Assembly: GCA_020352495.1 (NCBI GenBank)
Contig: CP070677.1
Location: forward strand, 3,948,090-4,004,360
Length of the DNA: 56,271 bases
Source: Candidatus Latescibacterota bacterium
GTDB taxonomy: Bacteria; Krumholzibacteriota; Krumholzibacteriia; WVZY01
Reading direction: 5' to 3'
The position numbers and the translations under genes are program-made. Under the pieces are notes generated by a model. That model saw only the letters and a program-made list of their open reading frames with translations, ran no database searches and was not told the origin of the DNA. Below are positions 12,337-21,319 of the stretch, piece after piece. Position 1 is the first letter of the stretch, and the number at the start of each line of letters is the position of its first letter.

Positions 12337-12462
12337 GAGTTGGCGTAAGGACACGAGAAAACGCGGTACCCCTCGTTGGGAGAGCAAGGGAGAAATCTCT
12401 CTTCTTGGCGTCAGCATTCCAAGCTTTCCCGGAAAGCATCTCTGGAACTCGAGGAGATAGGG

Positions 12463-13998
12463 ATGCAGGTTATCTGTATTTCCCGCGGAACACTTACCGG
12501 TGGCAAGGTTCTAGCCGAACGCCTGGCCGGCGCGTTGGGTTACCCGTGTTTGAGCCGCGAGGATCTGATCGAGGCTGCCGTCAAGGAAGGGATCCATGTC
12601 GGCAAGATCGAAATGGCCATGGTCAAGGGAAGAGGATTCAGTGATCGGCTGGTCCTCGAACGTGAACACTATCTTGCCTTCACCCGTGCTTATTTGTGTG
12701 AGCAGGCCCTGAAGGGTCAACTCGTCTATCACGGTCGGACTGGGCATTTGCTACTGCCCGGTGTCGACAACGTGCTGCGCGTGCGCGTGGTGGCGGACCA
12801 GGAATACCGCCTCAAGGCCGCGATGCAGGCGCTCGGACTAGAGAGGGAGAAGGCGCGCCGTTACGTGGAGGAAGTGGATGAGGACCGAAGACAATGGGTC
12901 CACACAATGTACGGCGTATCCTGCGATGACGTCTCCCAATATGATCTGATCGTCAGCCTCCAGCAGTTCAGTGTCGAGAACGCTGCCGCCGGTCTAACCG
13001 CCATCGCCCAGCTCCCCGACTTCCAGATGACACCGGCCTCGCGTCAGGCAGTAGAGGACCTGCGCCTCGGGGCCAAGGCGAGGGTGTTCTTGGCCCGCGA
13101 CGACCGGACATACAGGGCAAGCTTCAAGGTTTCGGCCAGCGACGGTGTGATCACAGTTACCTACCTTCCACAAGATGCCGGTCTGGCCGAGTCGATCCCA
13201 CCGGTGCTGGAATCATTGGAAGGATATCGGTCGATCCGGACCACTATGGCTACTAGCAACATCCTCTGGATTCAGGAAGTCTACGATCCAACATCCGAAG
13301 CATTCCGCAACGTGGTTGAGGTAGCCACCAAATGGGGTGCGGCGGTGGAACTCATGCGACTCGCACCGGGGAGTGCAGAAGGTGCCGCTGCCCCGGGGGA
13401 GGTATTAGAAGCGTTCGACGGGACCATCCCACAGATACAACCTTCCTCGCGTGAATACAACGGTGGTATCGAGGATGACGTGGCGGAGGGCGGGCAAAGG
13501 ACGTGGGCCGAAAATGGGGGATTGAAGCAGACGGTCGAGGAACTCGCGAGGCAGGGTAGGTCGGCGGGAGGCCGTGAAGTCAGAGGAAGCCAGACCCATC
13601 TTCTTGAGATGATCGACCGAAGCGTCCCTTATACGATGGTGGTAGTGGGTGACGTATTCCTCTCGAAGGGCTCCGCCGCCCAGTTGAGGTTGGCACGCGA
13701 GTTCCGCAGCTACCTTGCGGACAACATCAAGACTCCTGTCGTCGCAACGGACGAGCTAAAGGCCCAGTTCCTTTTCGGAAAGCGTGACCTGTTCCGCCTG
13801 ATCGGGTATCTCGCCGTAGTACTTGTGATCTACTTCCTCGTGTTCACTCATCAGAGGCAGATCTTGAGTTTCTTATCCGGGGAGGGATGGGTAATGAAGG
13901 TCGTTGCCGCAGTCGTGGTGTTTTTGTTCGTGCCGATTGTTGCCTATTCGTATGGCACCGTGTCCCGATCGTTCTTGAAACTGATCAAGATCGAGTGA
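12463..13998 (+). CDS. Cytidylate-kinase-like P-loop protein fused to BON-like, USP-like and membrane segments
   Basis: First gene of the six-gene operon, 511 residues from the ATG at 12463, which follows GAGGAG by 6 bases. Residues 1-190 resemble the cytidylate-kinase-like (AAK_33) family: CISRGTLTGGKVLAERLA takes the place of the usual ISRxxGSGG loop, and LVYHGRTGHLLLPGV follows. Residues about 195-260 resemble a BON domain. About 265-460 look like a universal-stress-protein fold interrupted by a low-complexity linker: ILWIQEVYDPTSEA at its start and SVPYTMVVVGDVFLSKGS near its end. Two hydrophobic helices (about 438-456 and 472-492) close the protein, putting the nucleotide-binding part in the cytoplasm at the membrane. 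A true nucleotide kinase would be soluble, so a sensory or regulatory role with the adjacent permease is likelier. Domain calls beyond the kinase are my inference. Confidence 0.85.
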   Translation: MQVICISRGTLTGGKVLAERLAGALGYPCLSREDLIEAAVKEGIHVGKIEMAMVKGRGFSDRLVLEREHYLAFTRAYLCEQALKGQLVYHGRTGHLLLPGVDNVLRVRVVADQEYRLKAAMQALGLEREKARRYVEEVDEDRRQWVHTMYGVSCDDVSQYDLIVSLQQFSVENAAAGLTAIAQLPDFQMTPASRQAVEDLRLGAKARVFLARDDRTYRASFKVSASDGVITVTYLPQDAGLAESIPPVLESLEGYRSIRTTMATSNILWIQEVYDPTSEAFRNVVEVATKWGAAVELMRLAPGSAEGAAAPGEVLEAFDGTIPQIQPSSREYNGGIEDDVAEGGQRTWAENGGLKQTVEELARQGRSAGGREVRGSQTHLLEMIDRSVPYTMVVVGDVFLSKGSAAQLRLAREFRSYLADNIKTPVVATDELKAQFLFGKRDLFRLIGYLAVVLVIYFLVFTHQRQILSFLSGEGWVMKVVAAVVVFLFVPIVAYSYGTVSRSFLKLIKIE

Positions 13999-14029: not shown

Positions 14030-15136
14030 GTGAATTTCCTGCTTACAAACTTCATAGAGTTGGATCTCGTGACCGCCCTGCAGGTGATCCTGCTGGGGTT
14101 CATCGGTGGAACGCTCAGTGGGTTCATCGGGAGCGGTGGGGCCTTTTTCATGACCCCGGGGATGATGAACCTTGGCGTCCCTGGGATTGTGGCCGTCGGC
14201 AGCAACATCACGCACAAATTCGGTAAGGCGATGATGGGGTCGAAAAAGCATAGGGAGCTCGGCAATGTAGACCGGCGGCTGGGCGCTTTCCTTGTTCTGA
14301 CGTCCTTCATTGGCATTCGAATCGCCGTGTGGATCAACAGCGCGCTGTTCGAAGGCGGAGGGGACGGCCACGGTAGCGGCACGAGCGCCGCATCAAACCT
14401 CTACATCAGCGCAGTATTCATATGTATCCTCTCCGTTGTGGCGATATCGATGCTGCGGGATGCTCTCCGATCCCGCGACACTACGGCCGCAGACGGGCCC
14501 TCTAGAAAAATCGCGAACTTATTGGCCCGGCTCCACATGCCTCCTGACATTCGGCTGCAGGTGGCGGACGTCAGGGTTTCCCTGTGGGTACTCCTCGGGG
14601 TGGGTCTCGCCACCGGGTATTTAGCCGGGACAATCGGCGTGGGGGGATTCATCGGTGTGCCGGCCATGATCTACGTGATCGGTGTCCCTACCGCTGTGGC
14701 CGCCGGGACTGAGCTGTATCTCGCCATGTTTATGGGAGCGTTCGGAGCGGTCAACTATGCTTACGGTGGCTTTGTGGACATCCGGTTGACGCTCCTTTTG
14801 TACCTGGGTTCTCTGGTGGGACTCTTCATCGGCGCCTACGGGACCAAGGTCGTGAAGGAGGTCATGATCCGCAGCGTCACCGGAGTAACCATTCTCCTGT
14901 GTGTCGTAAGCCGGTCCGTCGCCGTTCCCGCCTACCTCCGTCAGCTCGGATGGATCGACATGAATCCGGAGTGGGATGCTTACTTCAACCAAGCCAGCAA
15001 AGTCATGCTGTTCGTGGCGGGTTTCGTCGGCGCCGGAATCATCCTGTACAATGTGACCAGAGCCTACAAACGGCGAAGGCGCATTGTTGCCACACTGATC
15101 GAAGCGCCGAAGCCCTCCGCCGGTTCTCATGGGTGA
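14030..15136 (+). CDS. TauE/SafE-family membrane permease
   Basis: Membrane protein of 368 residues in the sulfite/organosulfonate exporter family, which moves sulfite, sulfoacetate and other small anions. The start is GTG at 14030, preceded by AGGAG at 14018-14022. Two internal repeats show the family motif: GFIGSGGAFFMTPGMM in the first half and GTIGVGGFIGVPAMIYVIG in the second. About eight membrane helices are apparent, with a charged cytoplasmic loop between the halves. It lies 31 bases after the kinase-like gene and ends 5 bases before the next start, so it is firmly in the operon. The substrate is not evident. Confidence 0.92.
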   Translation: MNFLLTNFIELDLVTALQVILLGFIGGTLSGFIGSGGAFFMTPGMMNLGVPGIVAVGSNITHKFGKAMMGSKKHRELGNVDRRLGAFLVLTSFIGIRIAVWINSALFEGGGDGHGSGTSAASNLYISAVFICILSVVAISMLRDALRSRDTTAADGPSRKIANLLARLHMPPDIRLQVADVRVSLWVLLGVGLATGYLAGTIGVGGFIGVPAMIYVIGVPTAVAAGTELYLAMFMGAFGAVNYAYGGFVDIRLTLLLYLGSLVGLFIGAYGTKVVKEVMIRSVTGVTILLCVVSRSVAVPAYLRQLGWIDMNPEWDAYFNQASKVMLFVAGFVGAGIILYNVTRAYKRRRRIVATLIEAPKPSAGSHG

Positions 15137-15141
15137 CTTTC

Positions 15142-16725
15142 ATGAACTGGTTTCACAGGATCCTTCACCGCTCCAGCCAGAGAGAGGATGCGATTCTACT
15201 GCTCAACCTGCGTTGCACGCGGTTCCGTCAACTCGTAAGAAACTATGGCAAGATCTTGGACGCGCTCGCCGATGCCGCTGATAAGCAGGGAGGAGACTAC
15301 ATCCTCGACAGGCAATACACCGTTTCACTATCTGAAGTCGTGCTCGATCTAACCGAGGCCATAATTTTCGACCTGAATATCCTGGCGGGAGACCGCTACG
15401 ATTCGTTTTATCACCTGCTCGATCGATTCCGGTCAGAGGTCCGAGACACCATCGCTATGGAGAACGGGGTAGACGGGCCTCCGAGTTCGGGGATGAGGGA
15501 GGCCGCGAAGGTTCGAACACCCACGTCCACGGAGGCGTTGAACAAACTCGCCAAGGCCATTGCGGAATCCCGGGTGCTCTATGAGCGTGTGGGACGGGTC
15601 GCCTGCCGGGGAGTGGCCGCTGGTCCCGTCTTCAATCTGGAGACCGAGGACAGTGCGGACGCGTTTACGGAGGGGGCGGTGATGGTTGCCTCGGACATCG
15701 TGCCGGATGACGAGTTCATCCGGCTGATGAGGCAAGCGTCGGCCATTCTCATCGATCTCGGGGAGCCCGCCGGGGATGCCGCAACGTTGGCAAGAGAGTT
15801 CGGAATTCCGACGATCGTGGGACTCGCGGACGCCAGCAAGCGGCTGGAGACCGGATCCGAGGTCACAGTTGACGCGGACGAAAATACCGTCTATCAAGGC
15901 TGGATCCAGGAACTCCTCGAGTATTACAAAACCGAGCGGCTGGATCAGGAGGAGGAGACGGAATACAGGATCTTACGTAGACTCAGACGGCTGATGTTCG
16001 CTCTGACGCTCGAGAAGGATGCCGAAACCGGCGCGGAACTCGGCGATTGCAGGACCCTCCATGATCTCGTTCATGTCGCCCACGAACTAGCGGGCGACGC
16101 CCAGTTCGAACTGATCACGAACCTCCGCGATTTCAAAAAGACGTCCACGAACCTCGTAACCATCAGCAACATTCCTTTCTACGTAATCGATGTGGGGGGT
16201 GGGCTGGCCCAAAGCGATCGGGGCGCAGCCAGTCCAGACGTGACCGAGATTAGCTCCCTCCCCATGCGTATGTTTGTCCACGGGATGGATCAGATATTCC
16301 GGGAAGGACCGCAAATGCCTCAACCCGGTGTCTTGCCGTTGTCAGTGATGGCCACGGTCACTGAGGAGCATGCTAACATGATCGTCCAACAACCCGGCGG
16401 CTTTGATATGGTCGACTCTATGATCGGCGAAAGCAGGGATTCCAATCACATCTACTGTCGCTTTGCCTCCACGACCCAAGGAAACGAGGACAAAGCCGTG
16501 CGCGGGGCGGTGGCCTGCGAGATACTTTCGCGGCTTGATTTTGCGGCGGCCCAAACGACCCGGGCCACCGCGGCGTGGCTCAGTGGGGTTCCCCGAAGCG
16601 ATATGGAGGAGCGCCTCACGATCATCGGCCGCCTCGGCGCTTACCTACTGGAAGCGGATGCTACCGGATGGGATGGGACTTCGAGAGACGCGTATGTGAA
16701 CACTTTCATAACCCGGCACGTATAG
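15142..16725 (+). CDS. PEP-utilizer-like protein with catalytic His replaced by Asp
   Basis: A 527-residue protein, third in the operon. I start it at 15142 (GTG at 15133 is possible); longer frames overlap the permease gene. Residues 1-100 are helical (LNLRCTRFRQLV, DLNILAGDRYDSFYHLL). Residues about 145-250 form the mobile swivelling domain of PEP synthase/PPDK enzymes, but the segment that reads GGxTSHAA in active enzymes is GEPAGDAATLAREFGIPTIV, so the phosphoryl-carrying His is Asp212 (GAT codon). No ATP-grasp domain is present. Residues about 280-527 form a C-terminal domain that resembles the end of the 859-residue protein two genes downstream. It is probably a regulatory paralogue of that protein rather than an enzyme. 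Confidence 0.85.
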   Translation: MNWFHRILHRSSQREDAILLLNLRCTRFRQLVRNYGKILDALADAADKQGGDYILDRQYTVSLSEVVLDLTEAIIFDLNILAGDRYDSFYHLLDRFRSEVRDTIAMENGVDGPPSSGMREAAKVRTPTSTEALNKLAKAIAESRVLYERVGRVACRGVAAGPVFNLETEDSADAFTEGAVMVASDIVPDDEFIRLMRQASAILIDLGEPAGDAATLAREFGIPTIVGLADASKRLETGSEVTVDADENTVYQGWIQELLEYYKTERLDQEEETEYRILRRLRRLMFALTLEKDAETGAELGDCRTLHDLVHVAHELAGDAQFELITNLRDFKKTSTNLVTISNIPFYVIDVGGGLAQSDRGAASPDVTEISSLPMRMFVHGMDQIFREGPQMPQPGVLPLSVMATVTEEHANMIVQQPGGFDMVDSMIGESRDSNHIYCRFASTTQGNEDKAVRGAVACEILSRLDFAAAQTTRATAAWLSGVPRSDMEERLTIIGRLGAYLLEADATGWDGTSRDAYVNTFITRHV

Positions 16726-16806: not shown

Positions 16807-17208
16807 ATGAATGGCAGCCTCCAGATTATGTTGGTGGATGACGAACCGATCGTGGGAAAACGACTCAAGCCAGCTCTGGCCAAGTACGGGTTAGAAGTCG
16901 AGGTGTTCGAGGACGGCCCGGGGGCACTGCGAAGACTTCGGGAAAAGGAGTTCGATATCGTCGTGACCGACGTGAGAATGGAGGATGTGGACGGAATGCA
17001 GGTGCTCGAGTACGTGCTCGCCAATTCCAAACGCACAAAAGTCATCATTATCACCGGATACGCCACCGTGGAGGTTGCCCGCGAGGCCTTGGTAAAGGGG
17101 GCGTTTGATTTCATTGCCAAGCCCTTCAAGCCGGACGATCTACGGGCGGTGATAGACAGGGCCGCAAAAGCCCTGGGTCACCCGGGGATCAGGAAGTCCG
17201 ACGATTAA
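16807..17208 (+). CDS. Stand-alone receiver (CheY-like response regulator)
   Basis: Single-domain receiver of 133 residues, with no DNA-binding or enzymatic output domain. Phosphorylation residues are complete: the acidic pair in VDDEP (Asp11, Asp12), the acceptor Asp55 in VTDVRM, Thr83 in IITGYA and Lys105 in AKPFKP. AGGAG precedes the ATG. The stop overlaps the next ATG by one base, so it is translationally coupled to the PEP-synthase-like gene. The likely phosphodonor is the histidine kinase at the end of the operon. Output must come from protein contact, perhaps with one of the PEP-type proteins. Confidence 0.92.
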   Translation: MNGSLQIMLVDDEPIVGKRLKPALAKYGLEVEVFEDGPGALRRLREKEFDIVVTDVRMEDVDGMQVLEYVLANSKRTKVIIITGYATVEVAREALVKGAFDFIAKPFKPDDLRAVIDRAAKALGHPGIRKSDD

Positions 17209-19787
17209 TGACAGTACCATCGGCCCTCTCGGATTATTCCGAGCCGGAGGTGGGAGGCATGCGGTTCAAACCACGAGGTGTTTCAGGAGACTCGACCCGA
17301 ATCGATCCGATTCACCGGCGCAGCCGCATCCTGCGCCGCTTCCTAGCTGCCAACAGCGAGTTGTTGGAACTGATGGCGGACCTCGAGACCGACCTCAATC
17401 ATCTGGAACCTGGTGAGTCCCACATCCGACAACCAATTCTCCGGCTCCTCGAAGGATCGCTTCTCCTTGCAGAGAACCTGAATCTGCTGACACGCGACAG
17501 GCACAAGGCCCTTTACGACGCCCAACGGACCATCGAGAAAGAGGTCCGCGGATATCTCAGTGCCGCTGCTCCGTCGGCTGATCGGCCGCTCGTGATCCCC
17601 CTGGACAAGGCAAGCAGTGGGAAAGTGCGGGACGTGGGGGGGAAAGCGGCACGACTCGGCGAACTCCGAGTCGTGATGTCTGAAATTGTCCCACCGGGTT
17701 TTGTGATTTCCACATCCGCCTACCGGCTATTCCTGGAACGGAACAATCTCCATGAACAGATTCGGGGACTCCTCAAAGACCTTAGCTTTATCACCGAGCG
17801 AGATCTCTTCCGCGAGCGCACAGCTACTGTCCGCTCGCTCGTGGAGGCGAGCCCTGTTCCTCGGGAAGTGGCGGAAGCCATTGCCAACGGAATCATGCAG
17901 TTTCCTTTACCGTGGCCCTCCCACTGGGCCGTCCGGTCCAGCGCCGTCGGAGAGGACGGCCGCTTGAGCTTCGCTGGGCAGTTTGACAGCTTTTTGAATG
18001 TACCACGAGACGAGCTGCAGGACGCTTACAGGAAGGTGATCGCCAGCCGCTACGCCGACCGGGCGGTGTTGTACCGGCTGGCGGGAGGGTTCACAGAGGT
18101 GGACACACCCATGGCAGTTCTCTTTATGCCCATGCTCGATGCCCAGTCGGCAGGAGTCTTGTATACGCGGGATCCGGCCGACGAATCCGCGGACCTGATG
18201 CTGATCAACTCGGTTCACGGGCTGGCGGACCAGCTGGTTCAGGGGCGTGCACTGGCCGACATCTTCGTGGCGAGTCGAAGCCAGCCGTGGAAGGTGGTCG
18301 ATCAACAACTGGCCACTCGCCCCAAGATGCTCACGACAACCGTCGAAGATGGTGGTGACCGGACCGCGCCTTCCGAATCCTGCGACGGTCCTTCTCTTTG
18401 CGGAGAGGACCTGCGGCTCCTCGTGGAGATCGGCCTCAAAATCGAGCGGCGCTTTGGACGGCCCCAGGACATTGAGTGGGTGCTCACGAAAGAAGGACGA
18501 CTGATGGTGGTTCAGGCGCGCCCGCTGCGAACGGAACACCGCCCTGTGCACGGGGGACAGTCCGTTGAAGTTCGCAACGCGCTGATGGAAGGAGGAGTGA
18601 CCATCTTTCCCGGACGCACGGTCGGCCCGGCCTATGTTGCTCGCACTTCCGAACAACTCGCGGAAGCCCCCGAGAGGGCCATCCTCGTCGTGGAAGACGC
18701 CACACCGGAGATCGGTGCGGCAGTTCCGTTTCTGGCGGGTCTCATTTCAGAACGTGGCAATCCTGGCGGTCATGCAGCCACGCTTGCCCGTGAATTCGGG
18801 GTGCCCTCACTTTTTGGGGTCGAGGGGGCCATCGATCTTCTCCAGACCGGACAGGTCCTCAGCATCGATGCAACACACCGGAAAGTGTTCGAAGGAGCCC
18901 TCTGGCCCGAAGTGGAAGAAAGGGTCGAAGTGAGGATGCGGCGGGCCCGCACGGGCGAATCGGTCGGCCCGCTCCATGATTGGCTGCTCACCCTCAATCT
19001 GACCGACCCACTCTCCGTGTCGTTCCGCGCGAGCAAGTGCCGGTCCGTTCACGACATCATTCGTTTCGCCCATGAGAAAGTGGTGGCTGCGGTATTCGAC
19101 TTGGGAGACGAGGCCGTCACGCGAGGACAGAAGGCGGTGCGGCTGGATTCCAAAGTTCCGTTGGGTCTAACGGTGATGGATCTCGGGGGAGCCTTTCCGA
19201 AAACGGATAAGCCCAGGCGATCGTTGACACCCGAGGAGATCGACTCACGACCTTTCCAGGCTCTGTGGCGAGGAATCGCAGATCCCGCTGTGAGTTGGGC
19301 GGGCCGCAGCAGGGTCAGTGTGTCCGGCTTTGCATCGGTGATGGTCAAATCCGTGACCGATCCCTATGGTTCGATCCGCCAGCTAGGAGAGCGCAACTAT
19401 CTGATCGTCTCTCCCGAGTATCTGAACCTCAATGCCAGGCTGGCCTATCACTTCGCCATGGTGGATGCGTTCGTATGCGAAGTTCCGGAAAACAACTACG
19501 TGAACTTTCGATTCCGCGGCGGTGCCGCGAGCGCGGAAAGGAGGGATCTTCGTGCGCGCTTCCTCGCCGAGGTTCTCCTCAATTCGAAGTTCGGCGTGAA
19601 CCGGCGCGGGGATCTTGTCACCGGCTGGCTCCGCCGTCATTCCAGGAATGAATCGGAAGAAGGGCTCGCCCTGCTCGGCAGACTCATGGCCTGCGCCCGC
19701 CAACTCGACATGTTGATGGACAACAAAGGAGCTCTCGATCGCTGTGTGGAGCGATTCCTCGAGGGGAATTATCAGGAATTCGCGTAG
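17208..19787 (+). CDS. PEP-synthase/PPDK-like protein with shared N- and C-terminal domains
   Basis: An 859-residue protein with an intact ATP-grasp (PPDK_N-type) domain at about 125-445: VRSSAVGEDGRLSFAGQFDS, SAGVLYTRDP and GRPQDIEWVL followed by LMVVQARPL. The swivelling domain (about 460-565) keeps the phosphocarrier His522 in GNPGGHAATLAREFGVPS. The PEP/pyruvate barrel of true PEP synthase is absent; instead there is an unassigned region (about 580-859) with CRSVHDIIRFAHEK, VMDLGGAF and NNYVNFRFRGG, matching the end of the 527-residue paralogue. Residues 40-120 are helical and also match it. It could phosphorylate its own His from ATP, passing phosphate to an unknown partner. Chemistry is inferred. 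Confidence 0.88.
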   Translation: MTVPSALSDYSEPEVGGMRFKPRGVSGDSTRIDPIHRRSRILRRFLAANSELLELMADLETDLNHLEPGESHIRQPILRLLEGSLLLAENLNLLTRDRHKALYDAQRTIEKEVRGYLSAAAPSADRPLVIPLDKASSGKVRDVGGKAARLGELRVVMSEIVPPGFVISTSAYRLFLERNNLHEQIRGLLKDLSFITERDLFRERTATVRSLVEASPVPREVAEAIANGIMQFPLPWPSHWAVRSSAVGEDGRLSFAGQFDSFLNVPRDELQDAYRKVIASRYADRAVLYRLAGGFTEVDTPMAVLFMPMLDAQSAGVLYTRDPADESADLMLINSVHGLADQLVQGRALADIFVASRSQPWKVVDQQLATRPKMLTTTVEDGGDRTAPSESCDGPSLCGEDLRLLVEIGLKIERRFGRPQDIEWVLTKEGRLMVVQARPLRTEHRPVHGGQSVEVRNALMEGGVTIFPGRTVGPAYVARTSEQLAEAPERAILVVEDATPEIGAAVPFLAGLISERGNPGGHAATLAREFGVPSLFGVEGAIDLLQTGQVLSIDATHRKVFEGALWPEVEERVEVRMRRARTGESVGPLHDWLLTLNLTDPLSVSFRASKCRSVHDIIRFAHEKVVAAVFDLGDEAVTRGQKAVRLDSKVPLGLTVMDLGGAFPKTDKPRRSLTPEEIDSRPFQALWRGIADPAVSWAGRSRVSVSGFASVMVKSVTDPYGSIRQLGERNYLIVSPEYLNLNARLAYHFAMVDAFVCEVPENNYVNFRFRGGAASAERRDLRARFLAEVLLNSKFGVNRRGDLVTGWLRRHSRNESEEGLALLGRLMACARQLDMLMDNKGALDRCVERFLEGNYQEFA

Positions 19788-19813: not shown

Positions 19814-21319
19814 ATGGACTATTCAGCACCGGACGAACGCCCTATCACTGATGCTGTCAAAACCGAGGCGCAACGGGCTCTGAAGGAACGCCCGAGCTTT
19901 TCGATTCGTACGCGAATCATTCTCGGATTTCTCATGCTTTTTCTGTTTAGCCTGGGTATCAACATCACGTCGGTAATCATGTTAACACGCATCCAGAGCA
20001 AGCTCGGATTTCTGGAATCCGCGAGCAGCTACACATTCGAAGTCCAGCAGGCCCGCCGGTTCGAGAAAAACTACTTCTTGTATCGGACAAACCTGGCCGA
20101 CGCTCGGGAACACACCTACCGTGCGAGGGAGATCCTTGAGGGGGACAGGGAAGAGATGGCCTCCGTTGTGGGTGTTGCCCATTTCGAAACGATGGCGCGT
20201 CATGTGGATCGTTACGAAGAACTTTTGAGTAGGCTCGAAGAACCGAATGAGAAACGCGGGGGTGACTCGCCGCCTTACGAAGAAATCGAGGAAGAGCTTC
20301 GCGAACACGGCGCGGAAATGATCTCAGTTGCCGGGCAACTGTTGGCAAAGGAACGCGAGTCCGTAGAGAACATGCTTCAGGCATCCAAACGGATCTTGAT
20401 CTTTATTATCCCCGTGCTGTTCATCGTGATTGTTTATGTTGCCAACTTCATTGCCCGACAGATGCTTCAGCCCTTGAACCGGCTCATGGCGGACACGCGT
20501 CGTATTGCCGATGGAGATTTCACACCCATTACGCCGCGCCGTCGCTATCGGGACGAATTCACGGAGTTGGCCATGGCCCTCAATCACATGTGGCACCAAC
20601 TTGTTCACCGCCATGATCTGCTCGTCCAGGCACACAAGCTCAAGGCGGTCGGTACACTTACCGCTGGTGTGGCGCATGAACTCAACAACCCGATCAATAA
20701 CATCATGCTTACGGCATCCATGCTCGAGGAGGACTACAAGAGTCTGTCGGATCGAGAACGGCTCGACATGGTCAGAGATCTCCTCGACCAGGCAGAACGG
20801 TCCCGGATCATTGTCCGCAGTCTCCTCGACTTCGCTAGGGAGAGCGAGTTGAAAACCGGCCTCCTTCAGATCCGGGACCCGATCGAGGACGTTCTCCAGC
20901 TTACATCGAACCAGATCAAGCTCTCAAAAGTAAAGGTCGTCCGACAGTTCGCGGCAAACCTCCCGCCATTCCATGGAGACCCGCACCAGATCAACCAGGT
21001 ATTCCTGAATCTGGTGCTCAACGCCATTGACGCGATGCCTCATGGCGGGACCCTCACTGTCACCACCAGAATCGCTGACGAGCGAGACTACATCATGGCG
21101 GAAATCACCGATACCGGTGTGGGGATCCCGGAGCATGTGCTTACCAATATCTTTGACCCGTTCTTTACGTCCAAACCCACAGGCAAAGGTACCGGCCTTG
21201 GGCTTTCGGTTTCTCTGGGGATCATCCAGAAGCACGGTGGGGAAATCCGGGTGCGAAGCCGTACCGGCGAGGGCACGACTTTCACGATACTGCTGCCCAT
21301 GGCCAAGGTACCGGCCTAG
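19814..21319 (+). CDS. Membrane sensor histidine kinase with HAMP domain
   Basis: Last gene of the six-gene operon, 501 residues. A first membrane helix (about residues 35-58), a helical periplasmic sensor region of about 135 residues, a second helix (about 195-215) and a HAMP linker are followed by the dimerisation/phosphotransfer domain with VAHELNNPINN (His288). The ATP-binding domain has NLVLNAIDAM (N box), DTGVGIPEH (G1), FDPFFTSKPTGKGTGLGLS (F and G2 boxes). The catalytic core is of the NtrB/nitrogen-type family. The obvious partner is the stand-alone receiver two genes upstream. The periplasmic part has no domain I recognise, so the signal is unknown. Confidence 0.94.
   Translation: MDYSAPDERPITDAVKTEAQRALKERPSFSIRTRIILGFLMLFLFSLGINITSVIMLTRIQSKLGFLESASSYTFEVQQARRFEKNYFLYRTNLADAREHTYRAREILEGDREEMASVVGVAHFETMARHVDRYEELLSRLEEPNEKRGGDSPPYEEIEEELREHGAEMISVAGQLLAKERESVENMLQASKRILIFIIPVLFIVIVYVANFIARQMLQPLNRLMADTRRIADGDFTPITPRRRYRDEFTELAMALNHMWHQLVHRHDLLVQAHKLKAVGTLTAGVAHELNNPINNIMLTASMLEEDYKSLSDRERLDMVRDLLDQAERSRIIVRSLLDFARESELKTGLLQIRDPIEDVLQLTSNQIKLSKVKVVRQFAANLPPFHGDPHQINQVFLNLVLNAIDAMPHGGTLTVTTRIADERDYIMAEITDTGVGIPEHVLTNIFDPFFTSKPTGKGTGLGLSVSLGIIQKHGGEIRVRSRTGEGTTFTILLPMAKVPA

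Follow-up and report, generated by a model that had tools for sequence, protein, structure and literature searches.

A putative pseudo-dikinase encoded beside its intact paralogue in an operon of two-component and TSUP transporter genes

The protein P0001, encoded within the window (by which is meant the whole stretch of 56,271 nucleotides analysed here), belongs to a family of PEP-synthase-like dikinases and carries Asp in place of the phosphocarrier His of its PEP-utilizer domain. The reading preferred here, to which we would give a probability of roughly 0.6, is that it is a pseudo-dikinase derived from the first (copy A) of a tandem pair of such proteins, and that it has been kept as a non-catalytic partner or regulator of the intact paralogue P0002, of the two-component proteins of the same operon, or of both. 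Judged from its sequence, it is almost certainly enzymatically inactive. The genes concerned are these:

12376..13998, forward strand: cytidylate-kinase-like protein with a C-terminal hydrophobic extension (PF13189)
14030..15136, forward strand: TSUP (TauE/SafE) anion transporter family protein, 5 bp upstream of P0001 (PF01925)
15142..16725, forward strand: P0001, the putative pseudo-dikinase, 527 aa, with an N-terminal helical region, a PEP-utilizer domain and the family C-terminal domain, and no PPDK_N/ATP-grasp
16807..17208, forward strand: receiver-only response regulator between P0001 and P0002 (PF00072)
17208..19787, forward strand: P0002, the intact partner, 859 aa, with PPDK_N at residues 142-445, PEP-utilizers at 488-557 and a C-terminal domain as in P0001
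18771..18773, forward strand: codon of His522 of P0002, the phosphocarrier His retained
19814..21319, forward strand: sensor histidine kinase, HAMP-HisKA-HATPase (Pfam)

TSUP, response regulator and histidine kinase genes are thus all present around P0001 in the window, and among the best 10 loci (L057-L066), several of which end at contig ends, TSUP was found in eight and response regulators in all ten. The cytidylate-kinase-like protein has a long C-terminal extension containing two hydrophobic stretches, and so may serve as a sensor anchored in the membrane and not as a CMP kinase.

Within P0001 itself, the following can be distinguished:

15142..15486, forward strand: N-terminal region, homologous to the N-terminus of full-length A copies (blastp)
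15469..15561, forward strand: stretch where full-length homologues hold a PPDK_N/ATP-grasp domain of about 300 residues, absent here
15664..15882, forward strand: PEP-utilizer (swivel or mobile) domain, residues 175-247 (PF00391, E 1.6e-14)
15775..15777, forward strand: Asp212 codon, GAT, replacing the phosphocarrier His (alignment to homologues and solved PEP synthases)
15925..16722, forward strand: family C-terminal domain, with no Pfam or PDB match and a profile unrelated to the EI/PPDK TIM barrel
16072..16074, forward strand: His311, where 171 of 175 homologues have Arg; the four with His are those that also lack the phosphocarrier His
16399..16401, forward strand: Gly420, at the position of the LGYHF His that 171 of 175 homologues have

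Asp212 sits within GEPAGDAATLAREFG and aligns directly on the His of the GGxTSH/CHAA motif in three solved PEP synthases (8a8e, 9dae and 2ols), so that the replacement proposed in an earlier note on this DNA is borne out; the partner two genes downstream does, as that note also held, keep its His, residue 522, in the equivalent segment, GNPGGHAATLAREFG. The two proteins are paralogues, with 24% identity over 387 residues including the C-terminal region, and the description of them as an active and an inactive member of one operon gains further weight from what else P0001 is missing, namely the ATP-grasp domain and conserved C-terminal residues. PF00391 is its sole Pfam domain; PF01326 (PPDK_N), which matches P0002 with an E value of 4e-67, gives no match in P0001. 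The gap lies between about residues 110 and 140, and upstream of it residues 7-100 match the A copies by blastp with E values of about 1e-9 to 1e-10. Two whole-alignment attempts that laid this N-terminus on the ATP-grasp domain were set aside, and the N-terminal homology was taken from blastp.

Changes are also found in the remaining domains. Out of 45 columns that are at least 90% conserved in the family, 14 are changed in P0001 (the family median being 1), among them His212 → Asp, Arg311 → His, Tyr410 → His, His420 → Gly and Asp474 → Arg, while C303, H307, D308 and H314 are kept. P0001 does have the PEP-utilizer domain and the family C-terminal domain (LNL...CRTxHD...), with a profile match spanning the whole core; all four members of the family catalytic set (PPDK_N, phosphocarrier His, Arg311 and the His of LGYHF) are missing, and for this reason it is regarded as a derived, probably non-catalytic member. 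Established work has shown that PEP synthase, PPDK, RPH and HpeH cannot do without their swivel His (PMC12167813), so that P0001 would be incapable of canonical transfer.

The wider family has a consistent organisation, full-length relatives comprising an N-terminal helical region, the PPDK_N ATP-grasp domain, the PEP-utilizer domain and a C-terminal domain of about 260 residues marked by the motifs (N)CRTxHDxxRFxHEK, LGYHF and NYIxFRF. For this last domain no Pfam match was obtained in 12 members, and no PDB match was found beyond the swivel domain; profile-profile comparison gave the C-terminal domain a probability of only 0.1-0.3% against the PPDK and Enzyme I TIM barrel, as against 98-99% for the swivel domain. 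Strictly speaking, then, the family does not consist of PEP synthases, its C-terminal domain bearing no likeness to the TIM barrel. Members were found in 142 of 395 genomes of a Nitrospirota draw (E <= 1e-25), an upper figure because this threshold also lets in some matches to the swivel domain only, and in 145 of 395 of a Desulfobacterota draw (E <= 1e-60), often several to a genome in both; these are sample figures from genome draws, with phylum names following the seed records. In the window's own phylum, of which 80 genomes were searched, the family is absent from most genomes: members with the C-terminal domain were found only in the window's own taxonomic family, and no P0001 orthologue was found in any of the 80, whether of the same genus or family or beyond. 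P0001 used as a single query against genome contigs gave 18 pattern matches and no relatives. Among the Nitrospirota and Desulfobacterota matches there is also a recurrent larger class of about 1060-1090 aa, carrying extra sequence relative to the usual 850-900 aa, and one further family member (G168:C1:641523-642716) has an in-frame TAA inside the match.

Column statistics were drawn from 175 distinct sequences covering the core, with the presence of PPDK_N scored by profile. Column 212 holds His in 171, Tyr in three and Asp in one, and column 311 holds Arg in 171 and His in four; all 171 sequences with His212 also have Arg311. Loss of His212 and the change of Arg311 to His thus occur together in 4/4 His-less proteins and never apart in this sample. 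PPDK_N is detectable in 168 of the 175, every one of which has both His212 and Arg311, and the seven without it are P0001, the three Tyr-bearing proteins (L203/L268, L297 and L298), L280 and L287 (the same as L204 and L205), and L159. Several short members (L139, L159, L206, L207 and contig-edge cases) were not reckoned among the natural short forms because they are split or truncated, with a PPDK_N frame adjoining or cut by a contig end. In L206 (7005-9430, reverse strand) PPDK_N (366 aa) and the swivel plus C-terminal part (443 aa) form separate neighbouring frames meeting at one base; either the gene is naturally split there or the sequencing introduced a frameshift. Two apparent natural fragments were likewise dropped, each bordering on a 100-N gap: G000 2116004, which consists of the C-terminal part by itself, and G000 1121696, a paralogue with a truncated C-terminus. 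Of the family copies in this genome, two (L040:2507-2606 and L296:5911-6010) border on a 100-N gap each, and what the one lacks is roughly what the other has; they are possibly one gene broken in assembly. The short members at L204:6945-8573 and L205:7527-9167 have no PPDK_N and keep the phosphocarrier His, Arg311 and every conserved residue; as in HpeH, their phosphate may come from an ATP-grasp domain on another protein.

As to ancestry, Nitrospirota clusters provide the most informative comparison. In these a cytidylate-kinase-like gene, a TSUP gene (50-62% identical to that of the window) and a response regulator gene are followed by tandem full-length copies, A and B. The best matches of both the N-terminus and the core of P0001 are A copies, with E values for the core down to 1e-57, and IQ-TREE places P0001 in the A clade (a 27-row branch, SH-aLRT 97), on an end branch which, at 2.68 against a median of 0.29, is the longest among 133 members. 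In three related A copies (L217, L218 and L219) Asn stands at the otherwise near-invariant His of LGYHF, with the phosphocarrier His and Arg311 kept. Three alternative topologies were rejected by AU tests: one making P0001 the sister of P0002, as a recent P0002 duplicate would be (p 0.027), one uniting the Asp and Tyr His-less types (p 0.021), and one uniting all the short forms (p 4.7e-5); given the long branches, the first two of these p values are moderate. Two independent origins of His loss, one for each type, are thus favoured by the tree and these tests. Because the syntenic first copies of Nitrospirota are full-length and carry His, P0001 would most simply be a disarmed orthologue of copy A, and Asp212 a derived loss rather than something ancestral to this operon position. 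For the same reason, the check suggested in the earlier note, which asked whether Asp is shared by all paralogues at the equivalent position, gives a negative answer.

The Tyr-bearing proteins constitute a parallel case. They come from three species of one Nitrospirota family and share 70-80% identity; all three keep the Tyr, His311 and Asn314, and none has PPDK_N. The dN/dS values of 0.16/0.82, 0.17/0.90 and 0.10/0.31 (about 0.20, 0.19 and 0.32) indicate purifying selection. At all three loci the gene is found in the order PAS histidine kinase, pseudo-dikinase, dCache-PAS histidine kinase, receiver-only regulator, an order established from the similarity of neighbouring frames in the three genomes and, in one genome, from Pfam domain assignments too. 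Full-length copies with the His occur at other places in two of the three genomes. The resemblance to P0001 extends to the truncated architecture, the lost phosphocarrier His, the change of Arg311 to His and the setting amid histidine kinases and a response regulator, whereas the differences are that this form belongs to another clade (of independent origin), has Tyr rather than Asp, has Asn for His314, and keeps the His of LGYHF. It provides the best evidence that such proteins can be useful without catalysis and, because a separate lineage has independently evolved and keeps a disarmed copy, it suggests that the task of such a protein lies in control and not in enzymatic work.

Several known systems invite comparison. 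PEP synthase of the E. coli PpsA type (8a8e, 9dae, 2ols) has a homologous swivel domain, in which the His/Asp site can be aligned unambiguously, and shares with the intact relatives of P0001 the order PPDK_N then swivel domain; P0001 differs in having neither PPDK_N nor the His, and the whole family differs in that its C-terminal domain is not the PEP-binding TIM barrel (PF02896). A resemblance in gene content is seen with the Desulfovibrio nitrate cluster (DVU0246 / Dde_0604), where TauE/SafE, histidine kinase and receiver-only regulator genes likewise surround a protein with PPDK_N and PEP-utilizer domains (PMC4001038). DVU0246 (a gene of 2235 bp, about 744 aa) is likened to the intact family of P0001 by gene content alone, and no His-less paralogue is reported in that cluster; insertions in it lead to nitrate resistance, and those who described it proposed that it functions in the uptake of thiosulfate (PMC4001038). 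HpeHI, CreHI, PpsAB and rifampin phosphotransferase resemble the family in combining ATP-grasp, a swivel His and a third domain that is not a TIM barrel, and in the two-component small-molecule dikinases ATP-grasp can be a protein of its own (PMC12167813). However, the swivel domain is C-terminal in HpeH and RPH, and HpeH keeps the essential His, where P0001 has D212, so that P0001 does not qualify as a His component of the HpeH type. Finally, the PEP-utilizer domain of Bacillus PykA has a regulatory rather than a catalytic role (PMC9009071), in which it would resemble P0001, but its TSH motif is intact and it forms part of a fusion with pyruvate kinase. A search for literature on His-less PEP-utilizer pseudo-enzymes found nothing relevant.

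On the preferred reading, P0001 goes back to the full-length first copy (A) of a tandem PEP-synthase-like pair, in an operon with TSUP, response regulator and histidine kinase genes, and in the course of its descent the ATP-grasp domain, the phosphocarrier His and two or more of the near-invariant residues of the C-terminal domain have gone. The architecture, the residue losses, the place in the A clade, the gene neighbourhood and the purifying selection on the parallel case are observed, and the role of the protein is inferred from them. Given the losses, P0001 would neither take phosphate from ATP nor carry phosphate on His. Its N-terminal helical region and C-terminal domain may bind and tune P0002, the two-component proteins of the operon, or both, and those two-component proteins would probably govern use of the TSUP transporter. 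Gene neighbourhood and analogy are what point to a regulatory role; the regulatory or scaffolding function put forward in the earlier note accordingly stands as the best fit, and as a suggestion.

There are clear alternatives. The most serious, though still unlikely, is that P0001 is a recently inactivated copy A heading for loss and without present function. P0001 is a singleton whose branch, the longest in the family, also fits decay, as do the loss of 14/45 conserved positions and the absence of an orthologue in the same genus or family; on the other side, a whole domain has been lost cleanly in frame, the 527 codons that remain are free of stops and have native codon usage (which counts only against advanced decay), and purifying selection acts on the parallel Tyr lineage, in which the same losses have taken place.

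Two other proposals would give Asp212 itself a function. It might be an acidic phosphate acceptor, as the earlier note had also offered, with either the histidine kinase or the ATP-grasp domain of P0002 supplying the phosphate in trans: receivers show that Asp can be phosphorylated, and the ATP-grasp and His-bearing swivel domains of HpeHI can work as separate proteins (PMC12167813). Against this, the independent His-less lineage has Tyr, Arg311 has gone together with the His in both lineages whereas the short proteins that keep the His (L204/L205) also keep Arg311, and substitutions of the His abolish activity in HpeH and RPH (PMC12167813); the proposal is thus quite improbable. No more can be said for Asp212 as a permanent phosphomimetic, which would lock the swivel domain in a phospho-like state and give a constitutive signal. 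There is a precedent in B. subtilis PykA, where Asp in the TSH motif of the PEP-utilizer domain was used in this way and altered regulatory function (PMC9009071), but the Tyr of the parallel lineage does not fit, and the loss of near-invariant C-terminal residues suggests that the phosphoryl site is no longer used. Lastly, a single C-to-G miscall (CAT → GAT) could indeed turn His into Asp, but sequencing or assembly error is hardly credible and is not the explanation for all the changes, because the missing PPDK_N and 13 other conserved-site changes are independent of codon 212, and the window has no N runs.

A broader and more tentative idea, doubtful on present reckoning, is that PEP-synthase-like dikinases have been disarmed recurrently, at least twice, shedding ATP-grasp, the phosphocarrier His and the matching C-terminal Arg to become dedicated non-catalytic regulators, whether of the active paralogue or of the histidine kinase and response regulator, and that this class controls anion-transport signalling in anaerobes. 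All this said, the dikinase family is large, often multi-copy within a genome, and tied to two-component genes and TSUP transporters, and we know of no biochemical function for it. The loss, twice over, of the His together with one C-terminal Arg suggests that Arg311 belongs to the phosphoryl-accepting site, and a natural pseudo-enzyme offers a handle on the role of the family C-terminal domain. If the kinase of the Desulfovibrio nitrate cluster belongs to the family, a genetically tractable host exists.
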